A stretch of 64,000 nt of DNA from Heloderma charlesbogerti. Its lineage: Eukaryota; Chordata; Lepidosauria; Squamata; Helodermatidae. Each line of letters opens with the position of its first letter. Positions within the stretch are counted from its first letter, which is position 1. The stretch lies in contig JANEZZ010002885.1 of NCBI GenBank assembly GCA_026122225.1, positions 496,001 to 560,000 of the forward strand, read 5' to 3'. Both the position numbers and the translations under genes were made by a program. The notes beneath the pieces are model-generated. The model was not told the origin of the DNA. It made no database searches and worked only from the letters and a program-made list of their open reading frames with translations. Shown piece after piece: positions 5,706 through 64,000 of the stretch.

Positions 5706-6374
5706 TAGGGGTGTATGAAACCCCACTTACCTTGCTCCGCTGGGGTCCGTGGTTGGGAGGTGATCCAGTCCTCCCGCCGGAATCCTCGACGGGGGGGGAG
5801 GCGATCCAGTCCTCCCCACCAGAATCCTGCCCGTACGGCTTTGCTCCGCGGCCAGTCCACGGAGCTGCTGGCTGAGCTGATCCGCAGCAGGGCCTCCATC
5901 TGCTGCCAGGCTGCTGCAGAAGCAAATGGCATCCTGCGTAGGGGACACCATTTGCATCCCTATGCTAGGCTGTGATAGGCTACTTAAATATTTACGTAGC
6001 CTATCACGGCTAAAGTGGGGATGCAAATGTCGTCCGCTGCGCCATTTGTGTCGCCGCTTTTGCTGTGATAGGCTATGTAAATATTTACGAAGCCTATCAC
6101 GGCTCAGCAAAGGGAAGCAAATGGTGGCCAGTGTAGCGGCCACCATTTGCAGCCGCATCCCGGCAGTGGCCTGAGCCGCCGCCGGAGTCACCGCTGCTGC
6201 CGCCGCCAGAGCCGCCGCTGCCACCGCCGGAGCAGCAGCCAGGTAGGATCCGTTTCGCAGGGCTTTTGCGGGGTGGTGGGGCAGGTTGCTCCATTCCGCC
6301 ACAGATTCCGGGGGGGCGAATTCACTGGAATTCAGCCTCCCTGGGATCCGTGGAGGAATTCTCTGACATCCCTG
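5706..6374 (+). mobile_element. hAT-like palindrome-array element, copy 1
   Basis: The left end is TAGGGGTGTATGAAA and the right end is CTCTGACATCCCTG. Flanking 8-mers CTCCACAC (5698-5705) and CTCCACGC (6375-6382) match 7/8 and read as a target-site duplication. Inside, type A palindromes (about 5920-5960, 6019-6060, 6114-6158) alternate with type B palindromes (5972-6007, 6065-6100). The left end carries AAG|GTAAGT on the minus strand (ACTTAC at 5725-5730). The right end carries CAG|GTAGGA near 6240. Long open frames over it on both strands (up to 237 codons) arise from stop-poor palindromes and are not taken as coding. Confidence 0.88.
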
Positions 6375-6383
6375 CTCCACGCT

Positions 6384-6880
6384 GGTTCCAGTCCAGGTGA
6401 CACACACTTGGGGTGGCTGTTTTTTTTTTGAAGAAGGCATCCTTAGATTCCTTACACTAACTAGGGATAGATGGACCTAGCTCTACTTGTGCTCGCTGCT
6501 GCTGCTTCCTGCCCCCACAAGTCCCACAGCATGAGCCCTGGATGGCCTGACGAGTGCCCAGCGAGCACCGCAGGGCCAGCTGCCCTTGAGCAAGCTGACA
6601 ATGAGAGGCAGCAGGGCAAGTCCAGCTCGTCTCATTGCGCACAAGTCTTCCTTCTTCCCGCCGGGGTACCAGAGGAGACTTGTTTGCAACAAGAGGCGCT
6701 GGACATGCCCACTGCCTCTCCTTGTGGGCAAGTCTCCCTTCTCCCTGCAAAAGGATGGCTCGCTAAGGACTCGGGCGCTCACAGACCGTGTGGCACTCGG
6801 TGAACAGGGGCAGGGGGGCAGCAGCTCAGGGAGTGGAGTCTGGGAGGCTGAGTGGGGGGGAATCTGTCGGACACTACCTT
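6384..6880. other. GC-rich sequence of unknown nature
   Basis: GC-rich stretch following family copy 1. It has open frames on both strands without recognisable domains. It begins with TAGGGATAG (6462) preceded by ACACTAAC, which recurs at 7148-7155, but there is no matching inverted end. Could be a decayed transposon. Confidence 0.3.
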
Positions 6881-6890
6881 GGACTCCCAT

Positions 6891-7134
6891 TTATTTATTT
6901 TTATTTATTTATTGCATTTATACCCCGCCTTTCTCCCTCTCGCAAGGAACTCAAGGCGGCTTACATTATCCTCCTCCTCACCGTTGTATCCTCACAACAA
7001 CAACCCTGTGAGGTAGGTTGGGCTGAGAGTCTGTGACTGGCCCAAAGTCACCCAGTGAGCTTCCATGGCCAAGTGGGGACTAGAACCCGGATCTCCCAGC
7101 TCCCAGTCCGTCACTCTCACCACTACACTACACT
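6891..7134 (-). mobile_element. tRNA-derived SINE with LINE-like tail
   Basis: Read on the minus strand it starts with a tRNA-like head: A-box-like TGGTGAGAGTGACGGAC, then the B-box-like GGTTCTAGTCC at 7077-7087. It ends in a 3' part typical of reptilian SINEs (GTAAGCCGCCTTGAG ... GGCGGGGTATAAATG) and an (AATA)n tail. The direct repeat GACTCCCAT lies at 6882-6890 and 7135-7143, a 9-bp TSD that fixes both ends. Confidence 0.85.
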
Positions 7135-7143
7135 GACTCCCAT

Positions 7144-7642
7144 GACAACACTAACACTAATACATAGTTTGAGTTGTGTTGTTGCTGTAGGGTTTTTCTT
7201 TTTTTCAGGTGAAATGGAATGGTGAGTTCAACTGATGGTCAATTTTATTAAAAGGTAACATCTGCCTGTTTTGTTATGTATGCTTTTAATTGTTAAATTT
7301 AACTCAGGTAAGATAGGCTTAATAGTATGCCAGAGAGTGAGTGAAAGGTTGGAAGGGCCTGAGTGTATGAGCATTAAGGTTATATAAGGAATGAGCTGAC
7401 AGTTCATAATCCCCTAAGTCAAATAGGGCCTTAGGGATCGTGGAAGCAACATCTACTTAGTGGGGTTTGTGTATAGGATTTTAGAAGGGGTAGAGTAGGT
7501 AGGGAAGTTAGGAACAAGCATTGATTAATCGTAATAACTTATAACTTTTCATATAGTTTTAAATAAATCTTTATTTGTTTTTAAAAATCCAAACACCCAC
7601 AAGTTGTTTGATTTTCCCTACCTTTATTATATCTATTTCAGG
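7144..7642. other. Unique non-coding sequence
   Basis: AT-rich, no recognised repeat or gene. Confidence 0.5.
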
Positions 7643-7691
7643 GGGTGGGGGATATTCATGACAATGGAATAGAAGCGTGTTAGAGGATTAT
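7643..7691 (+). repeat. Repeat A copy 1, left fragment
   Basis: CAGGGGGTGG...CAATGGAATAG matches 41,536-41,580 of repeat A copy 2. The match resumes at 8574, showing that the intervening RTE segments are insertions. The last 10 bases, AGAGGATTAT (7682-7691), are the duplicated target. Confidence 0.65.
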
Positions 7692-8055
7692 GCTGGAGGA
7701 AAATTCTGAGAGTGCCTTGGACTGCAAGAAGATCAAACCAGTCCATACTCCAGGAAATAAAGCCAGACTGCGGCTCACCTGAGGGAATTATATGAAAGGC
7801 AAAACTGAAGTACTTTGGCCACATCACATCATGAGAAGACAGGATACCCTGGAGAAGATGCTGATGCAAGGGAAAGTGGAAGGCCAAAGGAAGAGGGGCC
7901 GACCAAGGGCAAGATGGATGGATGATATTCTGGAGGTGACGGACTCACCCTTGGGGGAGCTGGGGGTGGCGACAGCCAACAGGAAGCTCTGGCATGGGCT
8001 GGTCCATGAAGTCACGAAGAGTAGGAAGCGACTGACTGAATAAACAACAAAAAAA
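7692..8055 (+). mobile_element. RTE/BovB-like LINE 3' end, first copy
   Basis: 5'-truncated LINE 3' end. The frame from 7792 to 8043 gives a C-terminal tail typical of RTE-clade proteins: a segment like HHIMRRQDTLEKMLMQGKVE, then a GRPRARWMDDI-like motif and KLWHGLVHEVTKSRKR before the stop. The 5' part (7692-7790) shows the PWTARRSNQS-like region with frameshifts. It ends in an AACAACAAAAAA tail. The same 10-bp sequence AGAGGATTAT lies on both sides (7682-7691, 8056-8065). It is a dead remnant. Confidence 0.7.
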
Positions 8056-8065
8056 AGAGGATTAT

Positions 8066-8563: not shown

Positions 8564-8573
8564 AGAGGATTAT

Positions 8574-10527: not shown

Positions 10528-11491
10528 TAGGGATGTACGAAACTCATTTACCTTTGCTCCGTCCCTCCCCGCGGAATCCTCAATGGGGGGGTAAGTGATC
10601 TGGTCCTCCCCCCCCCCGGAATCCTCAACGGCCAGCTCCGCTCCATGGCCAGGCTGCGGAGCAGCCGGCCAGGGCCGTCCGCAGCCGGCCAGGGCTGTCC
10701 GCAGCTGGATTTCCGGCCGTGGATGGCCTGGTGTGGACGCAAATGGCAGCCGCCATAGTGGCTGCCATTTGCATCCAGCTAGAAAGCCATGATAGGCTAC
10801 ATAAGAATTTATGTAGTCTACTACTGCTAACATCAAAAAAAACCCCCACACACGCAGCATACGCAAATGGCGGCAGCTATGGCGGCCGCCATTTGCGTTC
10901 CCTATTTTTCGCCAACTTATCTTATGTAAATATTTATGTAAGATAAAACGGCGGAAAAAAAAGGGGAACACAAATAGCGTAGTGGACGCTATTTGCGTTC
11001 CCTTATTTTTCGCCATTCTAGCCTATGTAAATATTTACGTAGGCCAGAAAGGCAAAAAATAAAGGAATGCAAATAGCGTCCACTACGCTATTTGTGTTCC
11101 CCTTTTTTTTTCGCCGTTTTATCTTAAGTAAATATTTACGTAAGATCAGTCGACGAAAAATAAGGAACGCAAATGGCGGCCGCTGTAGCTGCCGCCATTT
11201 GCGTACGCTGCGTGTTGTTGTTGTTTTGACGTTAGCTGTGATAGGCTATGTAAATTCTTATGTAGCCTATCACGGCCCAAGGACGGCAATGGTGGTGGCG
11301 GCAGCCCTGCCGCAGCCGGCCAGGAGACCAGCTGCCGCTGCCGCCGCATCCACCCCAGGTAAGTGCCGTCCCAGGGGAATTCCGCGGGGGGGCGGAGGGT
11401 GGGAGGCCGTTCCGCCATGGATTCCGGGGGGGGCCGATTCTAAAGAATCCAACCTCACTGGAATCCGTGGCGGAATACTCCACCATCCCTA
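10528..11491 (+). mobile_element. hAT-like palindrome-array element, copy 2
   Basis: Starts TAGGGATGTACGAAA and ends CCACCATCCCTA. The 8-mer ATTATTGC is perfectly repeated at 10,520-10,527 and 11,492-11,499. The interior from 10,736 to 11,279 alternates type A and type B palindromes. The B arms change in a symmetric order: GATAGGC, ATCTT, TAGCC, ATCTT, GATAGGC. A right-end donor CAG|GTAAGT lies at 11,359-11,364 (plus strand). The left-end donor has decayed to GTAAAT (minus strand, near 10,548). No transposase ORF, so non-autonomous. Confidence 0.92.
10736..11279. repeat. Mirror-symmetric palindrome array
   Basis: Ten modules: A 10,736-10,775, B 10,787-10,832, A 10,857-10,903, B 10,915-10,951, A 10,965-11,004, B 11,013-11,050, A 11,063-11,100, B 11,114-11,152, A 11,160-11,207, B 11,237-11,275. 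Each module is itself a palindrome. The variants are ordered symmetrically about the central B at about 11,031, so the array is a palindrome of palindromes. Confidence 0.85.
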
Positions 11492-13091: not shown

Positions 13092-13453
13092 TAGGGATGT
13101 ATGGATGTTGTTAAATCTGTTTCACCTGTGTTTTGTAGATTATTAGGATCTCTCATTCCGTCGTCCGCTCATTGACGGACTTGGATTTTTTTTTTTTTTT
13201 GCCCAAAATTTCATTCTACTTGCGCTAATTCACATTAGTGCTAACTTGCACTAGCGCATCAGCACAAGTGTGCATTAGCCCTTGTGCTAATGCAAATCAG
13301 TGTAAATCCCCCCCTCCCCAAATGAAAAACCAGTCCACATGTCTGCAGAATCTGCATGACTCAGAAAAAGCCAGTCCTCTGAGGAATCCACAGTCCAGAG
13401 TCATAGAAATCTAAATTCATTTGAATCCATGGTGGATCTCTCCAATATCCCTG
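13092..13453 (+). mobile_element. hAT-like relative with a different core
   Basis: Starts TAGGGATGTATGGATG and ends TCCAATATCCCTG, with flanking 8-mers GTTGTGGC (13,084-13,091) and TTTGTGGC (13,454-13,461), 7/8. The right end (GAATCCATGGTGGATC...) aligns with that of the main family (GAATCCGTGGCGGAAT...). Its core has no A/B palindromes. Instead, small inverted repeats of GCGCTAAT/ATTAGTGC and GCACAAGTGTGC fill 13,220-13,300. 362 bp, non-coding. Confidence 0.75.
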
Positions 13454-24942: not shown

Positions 24943-25788
24943 TGGGGGGTGGGGACAAATGAAAACTCCCAAGAAAGCAACTGGTAGAGGTGAGAATTTC
25001 AAATAACTTTCTCCTTGGGGAGGAGGACAGGATTTCTGCTTACCTTTTTAAATGTAGGCAGTGGCTGAGGGATGTTATTTCTTTCTTTTTAAAAAACACC
25101 CCTTGCACTTGCAGAAGCCCAGGGCCCTTCTCCAGCCCAGCAGCTCTTTCTGAACTCCCAGGAGACCACATGACCTCACCCTCTGCAATAGGCATTCAGA
25201 AAAGGCTCTGGGGCTGCAGAAGCTTTGTTGCAAAGCATGAGCAATGGGGGATTTTAGAGCTTTAGAAAAATTCTGCTTTTCCTTACAGCAGCACAGAGCA
25301 AGCAAGATAAGCATTTTTCTAAAGCTTCAAAAGTTCCATTTGTTCTTTGTGAAGAAGCTTCTGCAACCCAGGAGTTCTTCCTGAATGCCTATTGGAGAGG
25401 GCAAGGTTGTGGTCTCATGGGAGTTCAAGAAGTGCTGCTGGGCTGGAGAAGCCTCTCATGTTGGGGGCACTTTTCAAGTAAAAAAAAAGAGAGAGAAAGA
25501 AAGATCCTCCAGCCACCTCCCAAATGTAAAATGTTATGTGGAAACTCTGTCCCTCTGCCCAAGGAGAAAAATCTCCAAAATTCTCCCTCTCTCTACAAAA
25601 GAGGCAGAAAAAACAATGTCTCTTTTGCAGGGAGAGAGAGAAAAATCCTAAAAATAGGGGGCAGGATTCAGCACAACACTATTTACAACGGCTTAACATA
25701 CAAATAAAAACAACCCATATAAAGTAGTAAAACAATGAAACAAATAAAAACAAATTTAACATTATATAAAAGTGAGAATCTCCATGAA
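24943..25788. other. Unique non-coding sequence
   Basis: Includes purine-rich AGAGAGAAAGAAAGA at 25,489-25,503. Phrases around 25,120-25,250 and 25,340-25,460 (GGAGTTC.., AGAAGCTT.TG) look like a weak inverted duplication. No gene is recognised. Confidence 0.4.
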
Positions 25789-25796
25789 CTTCCAAA

Positions 25797-26702
25797 TAGG
25801 GATGTACAAAAGTCACTTACTGTTTTGCGGAATCTTTCCCGAAGGGGGGAAGGCACTCCGTCCCTCCCCCTGGAATCCTCAACAGGGGGAGAGGCGGTCC
25901 ATCCCTCCCCCCAGGAATCCTTGATGGCCAGCTCCACTCTGCAGGGATTCCGCAGAGCCACCTGCCAGCTCCACCAGCAGCCGGACATCCGGCCGCTGGC
26001 TAGCAGGGACGCAAATGGCGGCTGCCGTAGCCGCCGCCGTTTGCGTCCCTGTATTCAGCCATGATAGGCTACATAAAGACTTATGTAGCCTATCAGGTCT
26101 GGTTTTTTAAAAAAAATGCATACGCAAATGGCGGCGGCTACAGCCACCACCATTTGCGTTCCTTATTTTTGGCAGTCTTAGTCTACGTAAATATTTACGT
26201 AGACCTAGACGGCAAAAATAAGGGGGAACGTAAATAGCGTAGTGGGCGCTATTTGTGTTCCCCTTTATTTTCACCGTCTTAGTCTACGTAAATATTTACG
26301 TAGACTAAGACGGCGAAAAATAAGTAACGCAAATGGCGGCGGCCGTAACCGCCACCATTTGCGTACGCGTGGGGTTTTTTTAAAACCCAGACATGATAGG
26401 CTATGTAAGTCTTTACGTAGCCTATCACATCTATGTAAAAAAAAAAAAAAAAACACAGAAGTGACCAGACTGCAAATGACAGCGGTGGCAGCCGGTTGGA
26501 ATACCAGCCGCCACCGCCGCCGCCGAAGCCACCGCTAGAGCTGCCGCCATCCAGAACATCCGCCCCAGGTAAGTCTTGTCCCAGGGGGGGATCTGTGGGG
26601 GGCGGTGGGGGTGGCAGGCCGTTCCGCCATGGATTTTGGGGGGCTGAATGCACTGGCATTCGGCCTCACTGAGATCCATGGCAGAATTCTCTGACATCCC
26701 TG
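25797..26702 (+). mobile_element. hAT-like palindrome-array element, copy 3
   Basis: Starts TAGGGATGTACAAAAG and ends TCTCTGACATCCCTG. The flanks CTTCCAAA (25,789-25,796) and CCTCCAAA (26,703-26,710) match 7/8. Modules: A 26,009-26,053, B 26,063-26,097, A 26,122-26,158, B (TTAGTC arms) 26,176-26,215, short A 26,223-26,263, B (TTAGTC arms) 26,276-26,312, A 26,323-26,365, B 26,391-26,429, symmetric about about 26,243. Donors: CA|GTAAGT on the minus strand (ACTTAC 25,815-25,820) and CAG|GTAAGT on the plus strand (26,569-26,574). Non-coding. Confidence 0.9.
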
Positions 26703-26710
26703 CCTCCAAA

Positions 26711-26960
26711 TGCCTGACAGAATAAAAGTGTTTGCCCTTATCTATGAATGAGGCCAGGGAAGAACATATGTAGACTTCCTGGGGAAGAGCATTCCACAAC
26801 TGCAGAGCCACCACAGAAAAGACCTTGCTTCTGGTAGATGATAACCTTAGCTAAAGGAAAGAACTTGGAACAGGGCCTTGCTAGTAGATCTTAAGGCTTT
26901 TGGAAACTCATACAGGAGAAAGCACTACTTAAGATCTTTAGGACCCAGACCATATATATA
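26711..26960 (-). mobile_element. LINE (L2/CR1-like) fragment, antisense, decayed
   Basis: The minus strand reads VALQLWNALPQEVY followed by a SFIDKGKHFYSVRHL-like stretch, as in the C-terminal LWNELP region of L2-type LINEs. The rest (GACCTTGCTTCTGGTAGATG...) fits the preceding L2 region with many stops. Confidence 0.5.
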
Positions 26961-27090
26961 TTTAATGTCAAAACCAGAACTATTGCCAGTTACATACCAC
27001 TGATGGCAATTTAGAAAGATAGAATGATAACTTCCTTGATTTAGACCACTGGAACTGTGTTCAGAACCAACGAAGAAAAGATAATGTTAT

Positions 27091-27874
27091 AAGGGATGTC
27101 AGAGAGTTCTGCCATGGATCTGCCAAAATCCGTGGCAGAACGAAGCTCCCCCGCCCCACGAAAGGCACCCAAAATGGGACACCTACCTGCTGCCGTTCGC
27201 GCTGACTTGCAAATGGTGGCCGCATCCGCGGCCGCCATTCGCTTCATCACTATAGCCGTGATAGGCTACGTAAATACTTACGTAGCCTATCATGGCTAAT
27301 GCAGGGACGCCATTTGCGTCCCTGCGGAAGCTGTCATAGGCTGTGTAAGTATTTACGTAACCTATCATGGCAAAAAAAAGGGAATGCAAATGGCGGCAGC
27401 TACAGCGGCTGCCATTTGTGTTCCTTTTTTTTTTGGCCGTGATAGCCTACGTAAATATTTACGTAGCCTATTACGGCAAAACAGAGGCACGCAAATGGCG
27501 TAGTGGCTGCCATTTGCATCCCCCCCTCTTTTTTTGCCATAATAGGCTACGTAAATATTTACATAACCTATCACGGCAAAAAAAAAAGGGAACGCAAATG
27601 GCAGCCACCGTAGCCACTGCCATTTGCGTTCGCTGTTTTTTGTGGGGGTTTTGCTGTGATAGGCTATGTAAATATTTACGTAGCCTATCACTGCAAAATA
27701 CAGGGACGCAAATGGCGGCGGTTACAGCAGCTGCCGGGCGGCTCCAGCCAGTGGCTCTGTGGAATCTCCGCAGAGCGGAGCCAGCCAGAGAGAATTTTGG
27801 GGGAGGCATGGAGCACCTCCCCACCACCACGAATGTCACCCTTCGAAAAGGTAAGTGACTTTCATACATCCCTA
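27091..27874 (-). mobile_element. hAT-like palindrome-array element, copy 4
   Basis: Inverted orientation. The left end AAGGGATGTCAGAGAG is the 'right' terminus of the family and the right end TTTCATACATCCCTA is the 'left' terminus. The flanks AATGTTAT (27,083-27,090) and AATATTAT (27,875-27,882) match 7/8. Five B palindromes (27,258-27,293, 27,330-27,369, 27,439-27,476, 27,538-27,574, 27,655-27,692), all with GATAGGC-type arms, alternate with A palindromes. A donor AAAAG|GTAAGT faces out at 27,851-27,856. Confidence 0.88.
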
Positions 27875-27899
27875 AATATTATTAATACATTTTCAATAG

Positions 27900-28198
27900 G
27901 TCTGTGGTGGGGAACCTCTTTCAGGCTGAGGGCTGAATTTTATTTCAGAGAAGCTTTGGGGAGGCCACATTCCAGTGGTGGGCTGAAAGCCAAAGGGGCA
28001 TGGCCAAAAACAATACTAGCATACTTTAGCTTAAAGCCTTACTGCCAGTAGCTTAGGAGAAGTATTTCAACCTTTAGAATGGGAGGAAAAACTGGATAAA
28101 AGCTAGGAAATCACCAAATGATCGGGGGGGGAGAAGGGGGGCCCACAGGAAGGCGGTGTGGCCATCTGGGGAGGTTTGGAGGGCTGGATTGGGTAGCC
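27900..28198 (+). repeat. Decayed hAT-like MITE relic
   Basis: GTGGTGGGGAACCTCTTTCA, AGGCCACATTCCAGTGG and GTGGCCATCTGGGGAGG are phrases of a common amniote MITE class (TIR CAGGGGTGGGGAACC-like). Ends are blurred. Confidence 0.4.
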
Positions 28199-29530: not shown

Positions 29531-29803
29531 TTTTTTTGGCTTGCCGTGATAGGCTACGTAGATACTTACGTAGCCTATCACGGCAGCTTCGCAGGATGCA
29601 AATGGCGGCCGCTACGGCGGCCGCCATTTGCGTCCGCAGCAGCCCGTCTGCAGCCGGAACTCCAGCTGCAGATAGCCCTGGCCGCCATGGAGCCGCCACA
29701 GAGCGGAGCTGGCCCAGGGAGGAGTCCAGGGGGAGGGATGGAGCGCCTCCCCCCCACTGCGAATCCAAGCTGTGAAAAGGTAAGTGACTTTCGTACATCC
29801 CTA
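29531..29803 (-). mobile_element. hAT-like palindrome-array element, copy 5, short form
   Basis: Contains one B palindrome (29,544-29,584), one A palindrome (about 29,596-29,634) and the normal 'left' terminus at its right edge: AAAAG|GTAAGTGAC (GTAAGT 29,780-29,785) then TTTCGTACATCCCTA. GGAACTAC (29,523-29,530) and GGAACTAG (29,804-29,811) match 7/8, yet the left edge is TTTTTTTGGC, not a family terminus. Confidence 0.8.
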
Positions 29804-38119: not shown

Positions 38120-38815
38120 TAGGGTTGGCAGAGAATTCTGCCATGGATTCCAGTGAGGAATTCTCCCTGGAATCCGTGGCAGAATGGCATCCTGCCCCCC
38201 TGCCCCCCCACGGAATCCCCCCGGGACGGAACTTACCTGGGGCGGATGCAGCGGCGGCGGCAGCAGCTCCGGCGGCGGCAGTGGCTCCGGTGGCTGGTCT
38301 CCTGGCCAGCCACGGCCAGGCTGCTGCGGCTGCCACTGGCGTCTTTGCAACTGTGATAGGCTACATAAGTATTTACGTAGCCTATCCCGGCTAAACCCCC
38401 CCCCCCAAAAACCAGCGTATGCAAATGGTGGCGGCTACGGCGGCCGCCATTTGTGTTCCCTATTTTTCACCGTTCTAGCCTATGTAAATATTTATGTAGG
38501 CTATTACGGCGAAAAAAAAGGGAATGCAAATAGCATAGTGGGCGCTATTTGCATTTCTTTTTTTTCCGCCGTTCTAGCCTACGTAAATATTTATGTAGGC
38601 TAGAACGGCAAAAAATAGGGAATGCAAATGGCGGCGGCTGTAGCCACCACCATTTGCATACGCCATTTGGGGGGGGGCCATGATAGGCTACGTAAATACC
38701 TACATAGCCTATCACGGCAGCCTGGCTGGATGCAAATGCCATTTGCATCCGCAGCAGCCAGTCCGCGACCAGAAATCTGGCTGCGGACGGCCCTGGCCGG
38801 AATCCTGGCTGGAGT
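38120..38815 (-). mobile_element. hAT-like palindrome-array element, copy 6, 3'-incomplete
   Basis: The left edge TAGGGTTGGCAGAGAATTC is the family 'right' terminus, preceded by CACTGAAC (38,112-38,119). The other terminus is missing: similarity fades near 38,815. Donor CAG|GTAAGT on the minus strand (ACTTAC 38,231-38,236). Modules: B 38,352-38,392, A 38,419-38,456, B (CTAGCC arms) 38,471-38,507, short A 38,521-38,556, B (CTAGCC arms) 38,569-38,608, A 38,620-38,662, B 38,680-38,720, A 38,729-38,750, again symmetric about the short A. Confidence 0.85.
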
Positions 38816-41705: not shown

Positions 41706-42233
41706 TAGGGATGTACGAAAGTCATTTACCTTTAAGTTACTACGCCATTTAAGTTTTACTATGCCATTTGCATGGCTGCCTTTACCGTGATAGGCTATGT
41801 AAATACTTAGGTAGCCTATCACGGAAAGAGCAGCGGCGCAAACGGCGTAGCGGCCACCATTTGTGTCCCTGTTCTTTGCCGTGATAGGCTATGTAAATAC
41901 TTAGGTAGCCTATCATGGAAAGAGCAGCGGCATAAACGGCGTAGCGGCCGCCGTTTGCATCCCTGCTCTTTGCCGTGATAGGCTATGTAAGTATTTACAT
42001 AGCCTATTACGGCAGCTTGGCAGGACACAAATGGCGACCGAAGCAGCCGGCCGAAAGACCAGCCGCTGCCGCCGCCACCACCATCACCGGAGGAGCCCCA
42101 GGTAAGTTTCATTCTGGGGGGATTCCACGAGGTGGCGGGGGGTAGGAGGCCATTCCACCATGGGTTTCAGAGGGCCAAATGCCAGTGCATTAGGCCTCAC
42201 TGAAATCCGTGATGGAATTCTCTGCCATCCCTA
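41706..42233 (+). mobile_element. hAT-like palindrome-array element, copy 7
   Basis: Starts TAGGGATGTACGAAAG and ends TCTCTGCCATCCCTA. CGTACTTC is perfectly duplicated at 41,698-41,705 and 42,234-42,241. Three B palindromes (41,788-41,824, 41,879-41,918, 41,973-42,012) alternate with A palindromes. The first two carry the same TACTTAG variant, suggesting local duplication. Right donor CAG|GTAAGT at 42,102-42,107; the left one has decayed to GTAAAT. The shortest complete copy, 528 bp. Confidence 0.93.
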
Positions 42234-42394: not shown

Positions 42395-43204
42395 TAGGGA
42401 TGTACGAAAGGGACTTACCTTGTCCCGCAGCTTTTTTCGCGGTGGGAGGGAGGCGCTTCGCTTCTCCCCCCGAAGTTCATGCGAGCAGGGGGTGTCTTCC
42501 TGCCTCGCCCGGCTGAAATTCAGGCCAGGGAGAAGCGCCCCATCTCCCCGGCCGCGAACTTCAACAGAAAAGTAAAAAAAAAAGCCCCGTGATAGGCTAC
42601 GTAATGATTTACGTAGCCTATCATGGCTAGATCTGCAAAGTCAGCCGTGATAGGCTACGTTAATCGTCACGTAGCCTATCACGGGTGACTTAAAAAAAAA
42701 AGCACGTACTCAAATGGCGGCCCCCATAGGGAGCCACCATTCGCGTTCCTTATTTGGTCGCTGTAGTCTACATAAAGATTTACGTAGACTACGGCGAAAA
42801 TAAGGGCAACGCAAATAGCAAATAGTACACACTTTTTTTTTTTTAAGTCACCCGTGATAGACTACGTGACGATTTACGTAGCCTATCACAGCTGACTTTG
42901 CAAATCTAGCCGTGATAGGCTATGTTAATTGTCACGTAGCCTATCACGGGGGTGTTTTTTTTTTTTACTTTTCTTGGAATGGCGGTGGCAGCAGCCGGTC
43001 AAAAGACCAGCTGCCGCCCCCACCCCTGTCGAAGCCCTGCCGAACCGCCGCTGCGACCCGCCACCCGGAGCGACATTCGGGAAAGGTAAGTCCCATCCCG
43101 GGGGGGCGGGGGGGGAGAATTTCTCCCTGAAACTACTTCGGGGGGCCAAATACGTTGGCACTCGGCCCCCCGAAGTTTCGGCGAGAAATTCTCTGACACC
43201 CCTA
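42395..43204 (+). mobile_element. hAT-like palindrome-array element, copy 8
   Basis: Starts TAGGGATGTACGAAAG and ends TCTGACACCCCTA. CTGAAGGC is perfectly duplicated at 42,387-42,394 and 43,205-43,212. It is a divergent subfamily: the terminal regions read GAAGTT where others read GGAATCC. The core, 42,571-42,965, is one large inverted repeat containing B palindromes at 42,587-42,625, 42,645-42,684, 42,853-42,891 and 42,910-42,949 around a central A and a TAGTCTAC-type B. Donors face out at both ends (ACTTAC 42,413-42,418; GTAAGT 43,086-43,091). Confidence 0.93.
42571..42965. repeat. About 395-bp inverted repeat of nested palindromes
   Basis: Arms near 42,571-42,700 and 42,838-42,965. Each arm holds two B palindromes separated by TAGATCTGCAAAGTCAGC or its counterpart GCTGACTTTGCAAATCTAGC, and is bounded by A-rich/T-rich tracts. 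The two arms are reverse complements with scattered mismatches, so the segment could form a cruciform of cruciforms. Confidence 0.85.
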
Positions 43205-44200
43205 CTGAAGGCATCCTATGAGAGCAGCTCACCATCCCAATTTTGCCCCATTCCAGCAAACCGTCATGGAGTTATTGCTCCCACTCAGTTTTTCCTAATG
43301 TGTGCACTTTTGCCTGAAGAAGCCCAAACTCCAGTTCTCAAGTGCAGCATCTGAAGGCTCCCCCTGAAAGCATCCCCACCTCCCCAATTTCACCCTATTC
43401 CAGCAAACTGTTGTGGAGTTATTGCTTCCACCACCACCCCTTTCTCTTTCTCTGGGCACTTTCTCCCTGCTTGTAATAACAGGCTCCAGAGACCTCGCCA
43501 GATCAGAGAAGTGACTTTACACAATATTGGAGATATGATTTAACTAGGGATGGTGGAGAATTATGCCACGGATCCCAGTGAGGCCAAATGCCAGTGCATT
43601 CGGGCCCCCCAGAATCTGTGGCAGAGCGAAGGCCCCTCACCCTCTACCCCGCAAAACGGAGCCTACCTGGTGCCATTCACCGGTGGGTGGTCCTCGAATG
43701 GTGGCCATGGCAGCGGCCGCTATTCGTCTCCCCAGGAATGCCGTGATAGGCTATGTAACTATTTACATCGCCTATCACAGCTAACGCAGGCAGCCACCAT
43801 AGCTGCCACCATTTGCATAGCTGCCTTTTGCCATGATAGGCTACATAAATACTTACGTAGCCTATCATGGCATCCCCTATGCCATTTGCATCCCTGCTTT
43901 AGCCGTGATAGGCTACATAAGTATTTAAGTAGCCTATCATGGCTAAAGCAGGGGCGCAATTGGTGTAGGGGATGCCATTTGCATCCCTGCTTTAGCCGTG
44001 ATAGGCTACGTAAATATTTACGTAGCCTATCATGGGCTAGCGTAGGGACACAAATGGCGTCCCCTACGCAGGATGCCATTTGCGTCCACAGCAGCCCGGC
44101 AGTGGCTGGAGGCCCCACTGTGGGTTGGCCTGGCCGGCGGCTCCATGGACTGGCCATGGTTGAGCCGGCCGGGCAGGATTCCGGGGAGAGGAACAGATCA

Positions 44201-44524
44201 AATGATACCGCCAAGCGGAGCTACGAAGAGATCACGTCAGACTTTGAAGCTTTGGGAAGGAAACTCAAGAACTTGGGGGCCCAGATAGTTTTCTCATCCA
44301 TCCTTCCAGTAGTTAGAAGAGGGATAGAAAGGGAACGAAAAATACTCCAGGTGAATGACTGGCTACGATGGTGGTGCCGACGAGAGAGATTTGGATTCTG
44401 GGACCACGGGCTATACTTCCTGGAAGATGGGCTGTTGGCTAGGGATGGGTTGCACCTCACAAAGGCTGGGAAGAATGTGTTTGGCCACAGCATGAAGAAC
44501 TTCATCAGGAGGGCTTTAAACTGA
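44201..44524 (+). pseudogene. CR1 ORF1 C-terminal (esterase-like) fragment
   Basis: Reads from an NDTAKRSYEEI segment through VVFSSILPV-like (here IVFSSILPVVRR), WLRWWCRRERFGFWDHG and LLARDGLHLTKAGKNVF to a stop at 44,522-44,524. This matches the C-terminal part of the SGNH/esterase domain of CR1 ORF1, including the DGLHLT motif. The N-terminal half is lost by 5' truncation. By chance the upstream hAT-like sequence is open in the same frame, giving a 324-codon fused frame from 43,550. Confidence 0.85.
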
Positions 44525-44667
44525 ATCCTACGGGGAAGGGAGATATAATGTTGGGGGTAACAATGGACATAGGCGCATGCACTGCAATGGAGAGAACAGC
44601 TCTGATAGCGCCCAATAATAGTCTTCAGACACATGTAGGAAGAAAGCCAGACTATGAAGCACATGGT

Positions 44668-47431
44668 CTTCGATGTCTATATACTAATGCCCAGAGTATG
44701 GGAAACAAACAGAACGAACTTGAACTCAATACAAGAGGGAAATTATGACCTGATAGGTATAACTGAGACTTGGTGGGATGACTCTCATGACTGGAATACA
44801 GCAATTGAATGATATAACTTGTTCAGAAAGAACAGGAGGAACAGAAAGGGAGGTGGGGTTGCACTGTATGTGAAAAATACATATCTCTGCACAGAAATAC
44901 AGGAGGAGGAGCTTGGTAGCCCCATCAAGAGCATCTGGGTTGAAATAAATGGAGCAAAGAATAAAAGGAACCTGGTGGTCGGAGTCTACTACCGGCCACC
45001 CAATCAAGGAGAAGACAAGGATGAAACTTTTGAAAAGCAAATAGCCAATGTTTTAAGGAAGCATGATGTAGTAATAATGGGGGACTTCAATTTCCCCGAT
45101 ATTTGTTGGGAGACAAATTCTGCAAAACATGGCCCCTCCAGGAAATTCCTGACTTGTGTGGCGGATAACTTCCTCCTACAGAAAGTAGAGGAAGGAACTA
45201 GAGGATCGGCTATCCTTGACTTGATCCTAACCAACAGAGATGACTTAGTGGATAAAGTAGCAGTTACAGGAACTCTGGGGGAAAGCGACCATGTTGTACT
45301 TGAGTTCTTGGTTCTAAGGGAAGCAAAAGCCGAGTGTAGTCAAATGCGTACCCTGGATTTTAGGAAAGCTGATTTTCATAAACTCAGAACAATGATCAGT
45401 AAGGTCCCATGGCAAGCGATGCTAGCGAGAAAAGGAGTCCAAGATGGGTGGGAGCTTTTAAAAAAGGAAATTCTCAAGGCACAATCACAAACAATTCCAA
45501 CAAGAAGAAAAGGTGGAAGACAACAGAAGAAGCCAATGTGGCTTCACAAAAAGCTTAGGGATGACCTGAAAACAAAAAATGACACATATAGGAAGTGGAA
45601 AGAAGGCCAAGTAACAAAGGAAGAGTACAGGCAGGTAGCACAGAATTGCAGGGATGGCGTCAGGAAGGCTAAAGCTGAGAATGAGCTGAGGTTAGCAAGG
45701 GATGTTAAAAACAACAAAAAGGCTTTCTTCAGCTATGTGCATAGTAAAAGGCAGAGGAAAGAAATGGTGGTTCAGCTATTAAATAAGGATGGAAAAATGA
45801 TAACAGATGACAAAGAAAAGGCAGAGGTGCTCAATTCCTACTTTGGCTCAGTCTTCTCCCAAAAGAGGGTCTATGACCCCCCTGGCAAAGGCGAAGTACA
45901 GGCTGAAGGGGCAGGATTGCAGCTTGAGATCGATAGGCATATGGTCAAGGAACACCTCATTACTTTGAATGAGTTCAAATCTCCAGGGCCAGATGAACTG
46001 CATCCTAGAGTCATAAAGGAACTGGCAGAAGAACTCTCAGAACCGCTGTCTATTCTCTTTGAGAAATCATGGAGGACGGGGGAAGTGCCAGATGACTGGA
46101 GGAGGGCTAACTTTGTCCCTATCTTCAAAAAGGGTAAAAAGGAGGAACCTGGGAACTACAGACCAGTCAGTCTGACATCAATCCCTGGGAAAATTCTGGA
46201 GCAGATCATAAAGCAATCCATCTGGGAGCACCTTGACAACAATGCCGTGATTACTCGAAGCCAACATGGATTTGTCAAAAACAAGTCCTGCCAGACAAAT
46301 CTGATCTCATTTTTTGATCAGGTAACCTCCCTTGTGGACTGTGGGAATGCTGTAGACATAATATACCTCAACTTCAGCAAAGCTTTCGACAAAGTGCCCC
46401 ATGATATCCTGATGAGCAAACTAGCTCGAAGTGGGCTAGATGAAACAACGATCCAGTGGATCCACAGTTGGCTACAGAATCGGACTCAAAGAGTGCTTAT
46501 CAATGGGACCTTCTCAAGCTGGGGAGAGGTAACGAGTGGGGTACCGCAGGGCTCAGTCCTGGGCCCAGTGCTCTTCCACATTTTTATTAATGACTTGGAG
46601 GAGGAGGTGCAGGGAATGCTGATCAAATTTGCAGATGACACAAAATTGGGAGGGATAGCTAATACTTTGGAAGACAGAAACAAAATTCAAAGTGATCTGG
46701 ATAGACTGGAGCGCTGGGCAGAAAACAACAGAATGGCATTTAATAGGGACAAATGCCAAGTTCTGCACCTAGGAAAAAGAAACCAAATGCACAGTTACAA
46801 GATGGGGGATACGTGGCTCAACCACACTACGAGCAAGAAGGATCTTGGAATTGTTGTCGATCACAAGCTGAATATGAGCCAACAATGTGATGTGGCTGCA
46901 AAAAAGGCAAATGCTATTTTGGGCTGCATTCATAGAAGCATCGCTTCCAAATCCCGGGAAGTACTAGTTCCCCTCTACTCAGCACTGGTTAGGCCTCATC
47001 TGGAGTACTGTGTCCAGTTCTGGGCACCACACTTTAAGAAGGATGCAGACAAACTGGAGAGAGTTCAGAGGAGGGCAACAAAGATGATCAGGGGACTGGA
47101 AACAAAGCCCTATGAAGAGAGACTGAAAGAACTGGGCATGTTTAGCCTTGAGAAGAGAAGACTGAGGGGAGATATGATAGCACTCTTCAAGTACTTGAAA
47201 GGTTGTCACAGAGAAGAAGGCCAGGATCTCTTCTTGATCATCCCAGAGTGCAGGACACGGAATAATGGGCTCAAGTTACAGGAAGCCAGATTCCGGCTGA
47301 ACATCAGGAAAAACGTCCTGAGTGTCAGAGCAATATGACAATGGAACCAATTACCTGGGGAGGTGGTGGACTCTCCCACACTGGAGGCCTTCAAGACAAG
47401 GCTGGACAGCCATTTGTCGGGGATGCTCTGA
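44668..47431 (+). pseudogene. CR1 ORF2: endonuclease and reverse transcriptase
   Basis: The protein of CR1-type target-primed retrotransposition. The endonuclease starts near LRCLYTNAQSMGNKQ (44,668) and includes ITETWW, GVYYRPPNQ, MGDFNFPD and ESDHVVLEF. The RT follows with SPGPDELHP, NYRPVSLTS, FSKAFDKVPH, SGVPQGSVLGPVLF and FADDTKLGG, then the C-terminal YCVQFWAPH region. Lesions: a frameshift at about 44,728-44,731, a TGA at 44,810-44,812, a motif-A Asp replaced by Asn (codon 46,370-46,372, YLNFSKAFD), and a TGA at 47,336-47,338 where relatives have Arg, about 31 codons before the natural stop at 47,429-47,431. Between lesions 839 codons stay open, so the insertion is fairly recent. Confidence 0.93.
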
Positions 47432-48010
47432 CTTGGATTCCTGCATTGAGCAGGGGGTTGGACTCGATGGCCTTGTAGGCCCCTTCCAACCCTACTATTC
47501 TATGATTCTATGATTCTATGATCACCTCCCCCCCATCGAGGATTCCGGGGGGGAGGACCAGATTGCCTCCCCCCAACTGCGGACCCCAGCAGAGCCAGGT
47601 AAGCGGGGTTTTGTACACTCCTAGATTTAACACAACAATGGAGAAGCGAAGTAATGCAAACGTCAGAAAAGTGCATCATCATGGAGGCAAATCACTGGCG
47701 AAATGGGAGTGCAGGGCAATTCTGAAGGCTGGAAAGTCTTAGTGAGGGTACAGCCAGGTGAAAGACACATCCCTGGGCAGAGCTATCATGCCAAAGTAAA
47801 TGCAGTGAATAGGAACACACAGTATCAGGAGCACAGAGAACCTAATTTAAAGAAATGAAATGGAGTAAAAGTAGTCTCAGAAAATCTGGTTTTTCCACAA
47901 GAAATATCCGGGGTGGCTGCAGATTGGCCACAACATCATCTGCCAAAATCAAGCTCAAAATGTTCCCAATTCACAGCAAATCCCCCATGAGGACAGCCTC
48001 CAGGTCTGAA

Positions 48011-55901: not shown

Positions 55902-56564
55902 TAGGGATGGCGGAGAATTCTGCCACAGATTCTGGGGGGGGCAGATTCTAAGAATCCAGCCCCCCAGAGTCTGCAGCAGAACGGACCACCCCACCCCACC
56001 ATCCCACAAAGTCCAACCTGGCCAGATCCTACCTGGCAGGCTGGCACCGCCAGGTCCGGATCTGGCTGGGTCCATCCGTGGGCGGTCTTCGGACGTGAAT
56101 GGCATCCAGCCTAGCGGATGCCATTTGTGTCCCTTCCCCTTCGGTGATAGGCTACGTAAAGCTTTATGTAGCCGATCACAGGAAGAGGATGAGACGCAAA
56201 TGGCGTGCGCTATGCCATTTGCACCCCTTCCCCTTACCGTGATAGACTACGTAAAGCTTTACGTAGCCTATCACAGGAAGGGACGCAAATGGCGTAGCAC
56301 ACGCCATTTGCGTCCCTTCCCCTTCGGTGACAGGCTACGAAAAGGGATGTAAAGGGAAGCAAATGGCGTCTGCTAGGCTGGACGCCATTCGCATCTTGAG
56401 ACAGCTGTAGCCGGAAGTCCGGCAGCAGCCAGCCCCGGCCGGTGGCTTCTCAGACTTGCTGTGGAGCAGAGCCGGCCAGGGAGGATTCCAGGGGGGAGGA
56501 CCAGATCGCTTTCCCGCCCCAGACCCCCAGCAGATGGAAGGTAAGGGGGTTTCGTACACCCCTA
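55902..56564 (-). mobile_element. hAT-like palindrome-array element, copy 10
   Basis: Left edge TAGGGATGGCGGAGAATTC, right edge TTTCGTACACCCCTA. TGTACATA is perfectly duplicated at 55,894-55,901 and 56,565-56,572, and the CR1 paralog at 33.4 kb has the site once (TGCACATA). B palindromes at 56,143-56,180 and 56,238-56,275 have AAAGCTTT instead of AAATATTT at the centre, still self-complementary. A third is half-deleted at 56,325-56,345. Outward donors CAG|GTAGGA (minus, about 56,030) and AAG|GTAAGG (56,541). Confidence 0.93.
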
Positions 56565-57540: not shown

Positions 57541-58667
57541 TAGGGATGTCAGAGAATTCCCCCACGGATCTTGGTGAGGCCGAATGCCAGTGCATTCGGC
57601 CCCCCGAAATCTGTGACAGAACGGCCTGCCCCCCCACCCCCCCACAGATCCCCCCGGGACAAGACTTACCTGGGGCGGATGTTCCGGGCTGCGGCGGCTC
57701 TGGCGGTGGTGGCGGCGGCTGCGGCGGCCAGTCTTCTGACCGGCTGCCACTGCCACCATTTGCAGTCTTGTCAGGGGGGGGGGTTTACAAGACGTGATAG
57801 GCTATGTAAAGATTTATGTAGCCTATCATGGCTGGGTAAAAAAAAAAAAAAAAACACGTACGCAAATGGCAGCGGCTACAGCCGCTGCCATTTGTGTTCC
57901 TTATTTTTGGCCGAGTTAGTCTACATAAATATTTACGTAGACTATGACGGCGAAAATAAAGGGGAACGCAAATAGTGTAGCGGGTGGATGCTACTTACCT
58001 GGGACGGATGTTCCGGGCAGCAGCGGCTCCGGCAGCGGTGGCGGCGGCCAGTCTTCTGACCGGCTGCTGCCGCCGCCATTTGCAGTTTTGTTGGGGGGGG
58101 GGTTTACAAGACGTGATAGGCTGCGTAAAGATTTACATAGCCTATCATGGCTGGGTAAAAAAAAAAAAAACGCGTACGCATGGCAGCGGCTACAGCCGCC
58201 ATTTGCATTCCTTATTTTTGGCCAAGTTAGTCTACATAAATATTTACGTAGGCTAAAACGGCAAATCAAAAAGGGATGCAAATAGCGCCCGCTATGCTAT
58301 TTGCGTTCCCCTTTATTTTCGACGTCATAGTCTACGTAAATATTTACGTAGACTAAGACGGCCAAAAATAAGGAACGCAAATGACGGCGGCCATAGCCGC
58401 CGCCACTTGCGTACGCGGTGTAGTTTTTTGGGGTTTTTTTTACCCAGAGCCCTCCGCAGCCGGAAATCCGGCTATGGACGGCTCTGGCCTGGGCCTGGCC
58501 GGCTGCTCCGCGGAGCTGCTGTGGAAAACAGCTGGCCGTGGAGGATTCCGGGGGGGAGGAACGGATCGCCTCACCCCCATCGAGGATTCCAGGGGGAGGG
58601 ACGGAACGCCTCCCCGCCCACCATCAACATAATCCGCGGAAAGGTAAGTGACTTCCATACATCCCTA
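57541..58667 (-). mobile_element. hAT-like palindrome-array element, copy 11, duplicated core
   Basis: Left edge TAGGGATGTCAGAGAATTC, right edge TTCCATACATCCCTA. The flanks GAATTGAC (57,533-57,540) and GAATTTAC (58,668-58,675) match 7/8. The longest copy, 1127 bp. The segment from the ACTTACCTGGG donor through B-A-B modules occurs twice (about 57,664-57,985 and 57,993-58,295). B palindromes: 57,794-57,832, 57,916-57,949, 58,113-58,149, 58,226-58,261, 58,326-58,362. Donors at 57,664-57,669 and 57,993-57,998 (minus) and 58,644-58,649 (plus). Confidence 0.92.
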
Positions 58668-59325: not shown

Positions 59326-59329
59326 CCCA

Positions 59330-59712: not shown

Positions 59713-59954
59713 AATTTGACATCACTACATAGGCTCAGGAACAAGAAGAAAGCTATCCTGAAATGGGCAGCTCTAGGATCCTTTGGTGTGTATCCATCAT
59801 GCATCACATATACACATATGGCCCAAAGCCATGAAGAGCCAGGATGCTTTGTAGGCTGGTCTGGAAAAGGCAGTTTCCAGTTCCACTGATGACATTATCT
59901 TGCCGTCAACGTGTTATAAACAGCAGGGGGGAAAAAGAGTTTCCCCTTTTTTTT

Positions 59955-60870
59955 TACTCACTGATAGAGAGCACATTCTTTACATGCAGAAGGTCCCAGG
60001 TTTGATCCGTGCCATCTCCAGGTAGGGATGGAAGAACTCCTGCCTGAAACGCTGGAGAGCCACAGCCTGTCAGTGTCAACAATGCTGGCCTAGACTGACC
60101 AATGGTGTGACTCAGGATAAGTAGGGATGTGTGAAAGTCACTTACCTTTTCGAAGGGGGTGATTCGCAGTGGGGGGAGGCACTCCGCACCTCCCCCCGAA
60201 ATTCTAACCTGGCCAGCTCCACTCCGCAGCAACTCTGCGGAGCCGCCAGCCAGGTGCATTCGCAGGCGTGCGGAGCCTGCGGATGCAAATGGCGGCAGCT
60301 ACGGCGGCCACCATTTGTGTTCCTGTTTTTTTGCCGTGATTGGCTACGTAAATATTTACGTAGCCTATCACAGCAAAAAAACAGGGGCGCAAATGGCATA
60401 GTGGCTGCCATTTGCGCCCCTGTCTTTTGCCATGATAGGCTACATAAATATTCACATAGCCTATCACGGTGAAAGACAGGGGCGCAAATGGCGGCAGCTA
60501 CGGCGGCCGCCATTTGCGTTCCCTTTTTTTGCCGTGATAGGCTACGTAAATATTTACGTAGCCTATCACGGCCTCCGCAGGGATGCAAATGGCGTCCCTG
60601 CATAGCCGTGATAGGCTACGTAAGTATTTACGTAGCCTATCACAGCAAAAATGGGGATGCGAATGGCGGCTGCAGACGCAACCGCCATTTGTAAAGCAGT
60701 GCGAATGGCACCAGGTAAGTGCTCCGTTTCGCGCGCCTTTTGCGGGGTGGTGGGGCGGGAGGCTTCGTTCCATCACTGATTTTGGGGGGCCTAATGCACT
60801 GGCATTCGGCCTCACTGAGATCCATGGCAGAATTCTCTGACATCCCTAAGGATAAGGCAGCGTCCTAAGT
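59955..60870 (+). mobile_element. tRNA-derived SINE (second type), sense, interrupted
   Basis: The head has CTGATAGAGAGCACATTC (A-box region) and AGGTTTGATCCGTGCCATCT (B-box region), then CTGCCTGAAACGCTGGAGAG, CTAGACTGACCAATGGTGTG and ACTCAGGATAAG. After hAT-like copy 12 it resumes with GCAGCGTCCTAAG. SINE parts: 59,955-60,121 and 60,857-60,870. Confidence 0.8.
60122..60848 (+). mobile_element. hAT-like palindrome-array element, copy 12
   Basis: Starts TAGGGATGTGTGAAAG and ends TCTCTGACATCCCTA. AGGATAAG is perfectly duplicated at 60,114-60,121 and 60,849-60,856. Other copies of the SINE show AGTATAAG once here. Four B palindromes (60,332-60,371, 60,429-60,470, 60,531-60,570, 60,606-60,645) alternate with A palindromes. 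Donors at both ends: ACTTAC 60,140-60,145 (minus, AAAAG|GTAAGT) and GTAAGT 60,715-60,720 (plus, CCAG|GTAAGT). One of the best-preserved copies. Confidence 0.94.
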
Positions 60871-62040: not shown

Positions 62041-62043
62041 CTT

Positions 62044-62150
62044 GTAGCACCTTAAAGACTCACAAATTTGCTGTGGCATAATAAGCTTTCATGGACTGCA
62101 GTCCACTGTACAGGACGTTATTTTGAAAGGTGTTGCTTTTCATGTAATGG
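62044..62150 (-). repeat. Ancient repeat with decayed hammerhead-like core, antisense
   Basis: On the minus strand the core box reads CTGTACA (62,113-62,107) instead of CTGATGA. It is followed by a strong stem TGGAC TGCA GTCCA, GAAA (62,090-62,087), and then TTTGTGAGTCTTTAAGGTGC. Same family as at 3955-4066. Here the stem is kept but the catalytic box is lost. Confidence 0.5.
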
Positions 62151-62555
62151 GACTGAAATGGCACTTGCTGAAATAAAGGTACAGGACAGGAGCCCTGATG
62201 ATCCCTGTTGCATCTGATCCCCCTGGACTAGCTGGCTTTTTGCCCACATGCGTTTTGCCTCCTGCTGCCTCCCTTGAATTTTTCTTCCTGAGGTTTTTTT
62301 AAAAAATTAAATCTCTATTCAGAGATTTTGGATACATGGGTGACAAAAGGAAGCAGCCTCAGAATTAGTATGCCCCTTTGCCGTACGTAAGTTGTGAGTT
62401 AGCTTTTCCATCAGGGCAAGCTTCCATACACAACTGTACCAAATCTCTCTCTCTCAAAAAAAGTTCCCAATTAGTCTTGGGAACTAATTGTTTAGGCCAA
62501 GAAGGCACACAGGTCACCTGGTCAGTAAAAAAGAAAGGGAAAAAAAGGAAAGGTT
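62151..62555. other. Non-coding sequence
   Basis: Nothing recognised. Confidence 0.4.
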
Positions 62556-62557
62556 CC

Positions 62558-62805
62558 TCCTGTGCAAGCACCGGGTCATTACTGACCCCAGAGGGACGCC
62601 TGCTTGTGCTGGCGTTTTCATGGCAGACTGTAGCGGGGTGGTTTGCCATTGCCTTTTCAGTCGTGACTACCTTTCCCCCAGCAAGCTGGGTACTCATTTT
62701 ACCGACCTCGGAAGGATGGAGGGCTGGGTCGACCTGAGCCAGCTACCCGAGACCCGGCTTCCCCTGGGATCGAACTCAGGTCATGGGGAGAGTTTCGGTA
62801 AAAAA
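62558..62805 (-). mobile_element. tRNA-derived SINE (third type), antisense
   Basis: The minus strand has a CTGAGTTCGATCCCAGG B-box (fwd TCGAACTCAGG about 62,770), then TACCCAGCTTGCTGGGGGAA, GGCAATGGCAAACCACCCCG and CATGAAAACGCCAGC. This is a reptilian tRNA SINE type; assignment to the Sauria group is an inference. The A-box end is missing or degraded. Confidence 0.65.
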
Positions 62806-62835
62806 GAAAGCTATTGTAAAGCTGGAAAAAGGGCA

Positions 62836-63404
62836 GGAAAAGGGCAACTAAAATGATCAAGGAGCTGGAACAACTCCCCTATGAGGGAAGGTTAAAACAG
62901 CTGGGATTGTTTTGCTTGGGAAAAAAAGGAGGGTAAGGGGAGACATGATAGAGGTATACAAATTATGCATGGTGTGGAGAATGTGGATAGGGAGACATTT
63001 TTCTCCCTCTCTCATAATACTAGAACCCAAAGGGGTCATCCCATGAAGATGATTAGTGGGAGATTCAGGACAGATAAAACGAAGAACTTCTTCACACAGC
63101 ACATAGTTAAACTATGGAATTCGCTCCCACAAGATGTGGTGAAGTGATGGCCACCAATTTGAATGGCTTTAAAAGGGGGTTAGACAAATTTCTAGAGGAA
63201 AAGGCTATCAATGGCTACTACTAGTCTTCATGGCTATGTGCTACCTCCAGTACCACAGGCAGTATGGGTGGGCGGGTGCTGTTGCACTCATGTCCTGTTT
63301 GTGGGTTTCCAATACAGCTGGTTGGTCACTGTGTGAACAGAACACTGGACTAGATGGACCCTTGGTCTGATCCAGCATGCCTCTTGTTATGTTCTTATGT
63401 TCCC
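62836..63404 (+). mobile_element. CR1 LINE 3' end, 5'-truncated
   Basis: ORF2 C-terminus in pieces: ATKMIKELEQLPYEGRLKQ-like, then SGRFRTDKTKNFFTQHIVKL and WNSLPQDVV followed by a stop (63,145-63,147). The 3' UTR ends TGGACTAGATGGACCCTTGG, TCTGATCCAGCATGCC, TTCTTATGTTC. It is inserted next to a family B remnant at 63,409. Confidence 0.88.
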
Positions 63405-63408
63405 CACA

Positions 63409-63572
63409 ATAGTGAGATGCACTGTGTTTCTAATTAAACTATTGTTATTATCTCTAATTTTCATGTATACATAGAAATTAACATATGCAAATATTATGCA
63501 AATTGGTATCCTCTTTTATCTTATTTTTATTGGTGCATTTCCTCTTTTTTGGTGATGCATAAATGGCCACCC
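63409..63572 (+). mobile_element. Repeat family B, 3' part
   Basis: ATTAACATATGCAAATATTA, TGCAAATTGGTATCCTC, TTTTTGGTGATGCATAAATG. Matches the 3' third of the copies at 14.7 and 28.3 kb. Confidence 0.6.
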
Positions 63573-63671
63573 AATGTGTTGGGTTGTCTAATATTCTAAT
63601 CACAGTTATGAAATTTGGAAATGAAATCTAACAAAAACAACAAAGGGGGATTTGGCACCTTAACATCTAAC

Positions 63672-64000
63672 TAGGGATGTACGAATCACTTACCTGGTTC
63701 CGGTCGGGGCATCCACTGGGTGGGGAGGCGCTCCGTCCCTCCCCCCGAAATCCTCAACTGGGGGGGAGGCGATCTGGTCCTCCCCCCTGGAATCGTACCC
63801 AGCTGGCTCTGCTCCGCAGCGGCTCCGCAGAGCAGCCGGCCAGGGCCGTCCATAGCCGGACTTCTGGCTGTGGACGGGCTGCAGCGGACGCAAATGGCGG
63901 CCACTGTAGCAGCCGCCATTTGCGTCCTACCAGGCTGCCGTGATGGGCTAAATAAATGGGCTATTTACGTAGCCTATCATGATATGCCCCCCCCAAAAAA
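63672..64000 (+). mobile_element. hAT-like palindrome-array element, copy 13, cut by window edge
   Basis: Starts TAGGGATGTACGAATC after CATCTAAC (63,664-63,671). Donor CAG|GTAAGT on the minus strand (ACTTAC 63,688-63,693). A palindrome at 63,889-63,926, then a distorted B palindrome with a duplicated GGGCTA at 63,938-63,982. The right end lies beyond the window. Confidence 0.88.

Follow-up and report, generated by a model that had tools for sequence, protein, structure and literature searches.

A very abundant repeat family in the Heloderma charlesbogerti genome, read as a non-autonomous hAT transposon with a nested-palindrome core

Transposons of the hAT superfamily often begin with the motif YAGGG and are mobilised by a transposase that carries a C-terminal hAT dimerisation domain (PF05699). 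The members of the Ac family (Ac, Tam3, hobo, Hermes, Tol2) have short inverted ends and 8-bp target-site duplications (TSDs), with the target consensus nTnnnnAn, for which the literature searched for that string gave no confirmation. The Buster elements (Mar, TcBuster, SPIN) also produce 8-bp TSDs, and the accessible passages of two papers give their target as nnnTAnnn (PMC3517528, PMC3499496). The hATm elements, according to excerpts of their description, possess the ends TAGGGTG/CACCCTA, an 8-bp TSD and, in published members, terminal inverted repeats of 417 and 575 bp (PMC6004678). The present study concerns a repeat family that occurs in 13 copies in a 64,000-nucleotide stretch of H. charlesbogerti DNA (contig JANEZZ010002885.1; hereafter, the window), part of a genome of 2,302,168,690 bases in 3,246 contigs. 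We read this family as a very abundant non-autonomous hAT DNA transposon with a nested-palindrome core, fixed as subfamilies, and assign this reading a probability of about 0.86. No description of the family was found in the literature searched, which is a weak negative (subscription papers, Repbase and Dfam lay outside the search).

The membership in the hAT superfamily is based on the 8-bp TSD, the ends and the target bias. These were assessed in 50 full-length copies, of which 9 derive from the window, 18 from arbitrary loci (taken at fixed offsets, not at random) and 23 from loci chosen by a match to a 5' pattern; the TSD and length counts omit loci L001-L008 (overlapping copies) and L037-L056. 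The copies have a median length of 832 bp (range 451-1127) and are bounded by 9-bp imperfect inverted repeats of the TAGGG type (TAGGGATGT / ACATCCCTA). Their starts conform to TAGGG[A/G]TG[T/G/C] in 49 cases, the remaining one being TTGGGGTGT; TAGGGATGT itself is the start of 35 copies, and the 3' ends read CCATCCCTA in 23 and ACATCCCTA in 16. The 8-bp flanks are perfect in 29 copies and match at 7/8 or better in 41, compared with a mean of 0.283 per position for mispaired flanks. A single chance 5-mer aside, the flanks of the 50 copies gave no perfect match of 5-7 or 9-12 bp, which supports the 8-bp TSD proposed in a preliminary description of the window. Among the 41 TSDs, T occupies position 2 in 25 (binomial p 1.1e-5 against an assumed 0.28) and A occupies position 7 in 22 (p 4.7e-4 on the same assumption); the central positions show no significant bias by this test (T4 10/41, A5 12/41).

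Like the Ac family, the present elements combine short inverted ends with an 8-bp TSD, and their T2/A7 bias resembles nTnnnnAn; by target preference they are probably hATs of the Ac type. Unlike the Ac family, they show no transposase, they have a palindromic core, and their subterminal regions are asymmetric and GC-rich. The TSD length is shared with the Buster elements, but the nnnTAnnn target given in the passages cited above is not seen here. Similarly, the TAGGG start and the 8-bp TSD are common to this family and hATm, but none of the 50 copies begins with the TAGGGTG of the hATm excerpts.

Two palindromic modules make up the core of the elements, namely A (GCAAATGGC...GCCATTTGC) and B (TACGTAAATATTTACGTA, whose stems, b and d, differ by class), and module orders recur between copies. 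The commonest order of B units is bbddbb (8 of 50 copies), and five copies have the order bddbb. In the eight bbddbb copies, the 45-bp outer flanks of mirror-related units are 0.87 (units 1/6), 0.90 (2/5) and 0.90 (3/4) identical, and the other unit pairs in the inverted comparison reach 0.21-0.75. The bbddbb order is a second-order palindrome, i.e., one large internal inverted repeat that is itself made of palindromes. In bddbb, a mirror match (0.90) is seen between the two d units only. The preliminary description had spoken of two alternating palindrome types; both are indeed present, but the commonest order goes beyond alternation in being mirror-symmetric. The stem classes pair across the hairpin: of 204 units, 121 have GATAGGC and its complement, 20 have CTTAGTC and 5 have TCTAGCC with theirs, and the mean stem match is 6.13 of 7 versus 5.05 with shuffled partners. 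In every element, the final 70 bp hold a further, 3' subterminal palindrome around GGGGGGCCGAATG...CATTCGGCCTC (e.g., 60780-60848).

At up to one mismatch, the 5' pattern is found 61,738 times in the 2.3-Gb genome (30,869 per strand; control 0 and 1), which supplies the copy count that the preliminary description had proposed as a check. Since the pattern is matched by only 9 of the 27 copies that were not selected with it, the number of 5' ends may be roughly 185,000 (118,000-331,000, Wilson interval). The family accounts for 17,841 of the 159,779 bases of the arbitrary loci (11.2%, bootstrap 4.6-19.6%). Together with the window, itself a dense region, it accounts for 27,642 of 223,779 bases (12.4%) and for 1,865 of 4,044 CpGs (46%), in a run in which each locus's own copies were part of the query set. 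The module sequence GCCATTTGC occurs 440,573 times genome-wide, compared with 400 for a control word that is CpG-rich and hence weak, and the YY1/TISU-like core 12-mer GCAAATGGCGGC has 206,659 exact matches (control 4). On contig C1, the first 100 places listed for the 5' pattern are much denser beyond about 5 Mb, which suggests that the matches are clustered by region there. The four longest open reading frames (ORFs) tested gave no Pfam match at E 0.1. A miniature inverted-repeat transposable element (MITE) would lack coding capacity, be very numerous and have a uniform, short length; the median length given above is long for a MITE. The non-autonomous hAT family of the preliminary description is supported by the 8-bp TSDs, the short TAGGG-type ends, the lack of recognisable coding capacity and the very large number of copies.

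The A arm contains ATGGCGGC, which we take to be positions 5-12 of the TISU element; it occurs 148 times in the 50 copies, a mean of 2.96 per copy, compared with 0.069 in shuffles. The CpG observed/expected ratio is 0.93 in the copies versus 0.34 in the window. The splice-donor consensus [CA]AG|GTAAGT points outward near the 3' end of 34 of the 50 copies, within the final 200 bp and 110-135 bp from the terminus, and near the 5' end of 38, within the initial 60 bp and 24-25 bp from the terminus; 25 copies have both. Facing inward, it was found in 0 and 0 near the ends of the 50 copies (shuffles 0.05). Because the pattern by which 23 of the 50 copies were selected includes the 5' motif, the count of that motif is biased; in the other 27, the outward motif is present at the 3' end in 17, at the 5' end in 15 and at both in 8. 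Between the first ATGGC and the donor, the frame is open in 17 of 25 cases and interrupted by a stop in 8.

In the available part of the TISU study, transcription activity is tied to YY1 binding at positions 5-12 and positions 1-4 are dispensable, and other work cited there holds that positions 3-4 matter (PMC2518114). From such sequence features, each insertion might be viewed as a two-way regulatory cassette, with clustered YY1/TISU-type sites, a CpG-rich nested palindrome and an outward donor at each end, a view that we consider unlikely. It is quite unlikely that the core would serve as a portable bidirectional promoter and first exon, from which transcripts would leave both ways and be spliced into host exons. 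The outward donors with no inward counterparts, the density of ATGGCGGC and the CpG content are consistent with such a role, but CpG sites in the b hairpins are mutated at 16.4% per site versus 2.5% at non-CpG G/C sites, as expected of methylated rather than promoter-like DNA in the germ line; this decay argues against most copies being active promoters there. Moreover, the AGGTAAGT found close to either end could simply be a binding repeat for the transposase, the selection bias noted above applies to the 5' motif, and GC-richness alone can yield 17 open frames in 25. Two systems with YY1-type sites differ in kind from the present dispersed DNA transposon: SVA, which we take to be a retrotransposon, and PRE-PIK3C2B, a single locus. 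Both are repeats with such sites, according to passages of the sources on human SVA (PMC9239442) and on PRE-PIK3C2B (PMC3689693), as are the elements described here, in which YY1 binding is putative.

The number of B units ranges from one to six per full copy, and nine occur in one partial copy (L075). Such variation would fit the expandable hairpin array of the preliminary description, which would grow and shrink at single loci in the manner of a minisatellite. For the two B orders above (8 and 5 of the 50 copies), units in like position are 0.65-0.92 identical across copies, with values of at least 0.78 at 10 of 11 positions, whereas units at differing positions inside one copy are 0.70-0.71 identical, equal to the between-copy level. 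As the units match by position and not by copy, the array appears to have been inherited as a fixed design, and differing unit numbers seem to distinguish subfamilies. The palindrome array with varying unit number is therefore retained, but expansion at single loci is very unlikely in view of the positional identity in these two subfamilies (13 of 50 copies). Across 229 b-type units (the unit counts omit L001-L008, L037-L056 and L077 onward), CpG loss in one hairpin arm is independent of that in the other (97/66/40/26, odds ratio 0.96, p = 1), which indicates that individual copies merely decay. Arm-to-arm homogenisation, also considered, was rejected at CpG sites by this independent loss; the pair-preserving counts given below point the other way.

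All 50 copies exceed the mean of their own four shuffles in folding (mean ratio 2.10, lowest 1.32); copy 3 folds into a single long stem (z -28.6, 20 shuffles), and copy 12 has a z of -17.3 (20 shuffles). Stems of such length and stability could be taken for microRNA (miRNA) or small interfering RNA precursors, but action through small RNAs is highly improbable: all 59 Rfam matches in window positions 25700-28000 fell below the gathering score, and most were to unrelated miRNA models on which any long hairpin scores. It is scarcely credible that the family is Foldback-like or of another superfamily, since, although its long internal inverted repeats recall the large, module-built inverted repeats of Foldback and Galileo (P superfamily) in the accessible part of PMC3688188, those long repeats form the ends, whereas here the inverted repeat shared by the termini is only about 9 bp long, the large palindrome lies inside the element, and the TSD is strictly 8 bp with a T2/A7 bias.

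A profile search of the genome with PF05699 yielded 150 scored matches among 871 candidates; PF04937 and PF14291 gave 4 and 47 matches, respectively, and PF14372 gave none. An autonomous hAT partner with the same termini, for which the preliminary description had recommended a search, was sought in 26 of the PF05699 3' flanks (20 + 6, one of only 440 bases), and none of these ended in the family terminus; the search was limited in that the dominant hAT-like repeat extends past the stretch covered and in that scores were obtained for only 150 of the 871 candidates. Orphan 5' ends were considered as possible longer elements, but the real ones with enough sequence all had the A/B core. With regard to viral spread, the viral contigs contained 0 exact matches to the 5' end.

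The dominant hAT-like repeat has multiplied recently (L077-L081, L037-L049; e.g., contigs C838, C235 and C1330), and its long open frames, frequently of 879 amino acids, include a hAT dimerisation domain. Its copies are about 98% identical, three of them over roughly 2 kb of 3' flank and two over some 2.3 kb on the 5' side. A second ORF, in which a Myb/SANT-like domain was recognised (PF13837, E 5.4e-9), lies downstream in the opposite orientation, and the repeat may be a large two-gene transposon. Copies of the palindrome family are inserted inside its open frames at L085 and L086, which places activity of the palindrome family after those copies existed.

Several observations weigh against the reading of a non-autonomous hAT family with a fixed core. 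In addition to the missing partner, the TSD falls below 7/8 in 9 of the 50 copies, and 17 5' ends have no 3' end in reach, many of them because the locus ended. One of the 11 unit positions (0.65) departs from positional inheritance. Pair-preserving stem changes, counted with the same loci omitted as in the unit counts above, number 55 in the d units, against 36.7 in shuffles (maximum 50), and, as a modest excess, 43 in the b units, against 32.6 (maximum 46). We attribute this excess to the mixing of unit classes, as the shuffle ignores class and matched classes are seen across hairpins, but it could represent some arm-to-arm correction.

The copies of the window are listed in Table 1. Both ends are present in 11 of the 13, namely nine copies inside the window, the interrupted copy 9 and copy 13, which is completed past the window; the other two are partial. 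Seven of the 11 TSDs are perfect and four match at 7/8. Exact matches to GCAAATGGC, GCCATTTGC and TACGTAAATATTTACGTA number 22, 22 and 7, respectively. At up to 5 mismatches there are 47 type-B units, 44 of them inside listed copies (9 in one mononucleotide-shuffled window), and at up to 4 mismatches there are 43, all within copies (1 in the shuffled window). The motif counts and copy limits agree with the 13 copies and roughly 45 type-B units first reported, and the six 8-mers then given as perfect (copies 2, 7, 8, 9, 10 and 12) were all 8/8 on recheck. The 7/8 matches reported for copies 1, 3, 4 and 11 were also recovered; that of copy 5 (29523 vs 29804) was excluded from the TSD count, as no 3' terminus was found. 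Neither a 5' end nor a credible TSD was found for copy 6, and copy 4 has a single altered terminal base (AAGGGATGT). The insertion nested in copy 9 (about 44190-47522), which resembles a long interspersed nuclear element (LINE) and which by eye we presume to be a CR1, ends in a (ATTCTATG)n tail at 47497-47522. The TAGGGATGT match at 13092 does not belong to the family.

Table 1. Copies of the palindrome family in the window
Copy	Position	Strand	State	TSD
1	5706..6374	+	full length	7/8 (CTCCACAC/CTCCACGC)
2	10528..11491	+	full length	8/8 (ATTATTGC)
3	25797..26702	+	full length	7/8
4	27091..27874	-	full length	7/8
5	29531..29803	-	5' end only (at 29803); left limit approximate	
6	38120..38812	-	3' end (at 38120) and core; right limit approximate	
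7	41706..42233	+	full length	8/8 (CGTACTTC)
8	42395..43204	+	full length	8/8 (CTGAAGGC)
9	43545..47623	-	full length, split by nested LINE-like insertion	8/8 (GATTTAAC)
10	55902..56564	-	full length	8/8 (TGTACATA on + strand)
11	57541..58667	-	full length	7/8
12	60122..60848	+	full length	8/8 (AGGATAAG)
13	63672..64000	+	ends at 64687, 687 bp beyond the window (locus L025)	8/8 (CATCTAAC)

The copies were inserted with an 8-bp target duplication, and their module orders are fixed and common to many copies. The family seems to move in the ordinary, known way, in which the copies would have been excised and reinserted by a hAT transposase made elsewhere. Inverted duplication in a small number of source copies, through fold-back or template-switch copying, e.g., during gap repair after excision, would have created the nested palindromes; these would then have been multiplied as fixed subfamilies, with single copies decaying afterward. 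The modules would most likely serve as clustered binding sites, either for the transposase or for a host factor, YY1 being one candidate; for the former, a precedent exists in the repeats of Galileo, which hold several transposase-binding sites according to the accessible part of PMC3688188.

If the hAT reading is true, a single family contributes about one tenth of the DNA sampled and almost half of the CpGs therein, and it would affect the methylation, the regulatory-site content and the assembly of the genome. The cassette view, if true, would imply that the family has spread roughly 10^5 bidirectional promoter/first-exon units, over 2x10^5 exact YY1-type 12-mers and almost half of the sampled CpGs. 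Should either the YY1-type sites or the outward donors be functional, the family would offer a natural experiment, on a large scale, in how regulatory sequence spreads. The second-order palindrome provides a testable case of how inverted duplications accumulate in cut-and-paste elements and subsequently become fixed as subfamilies.

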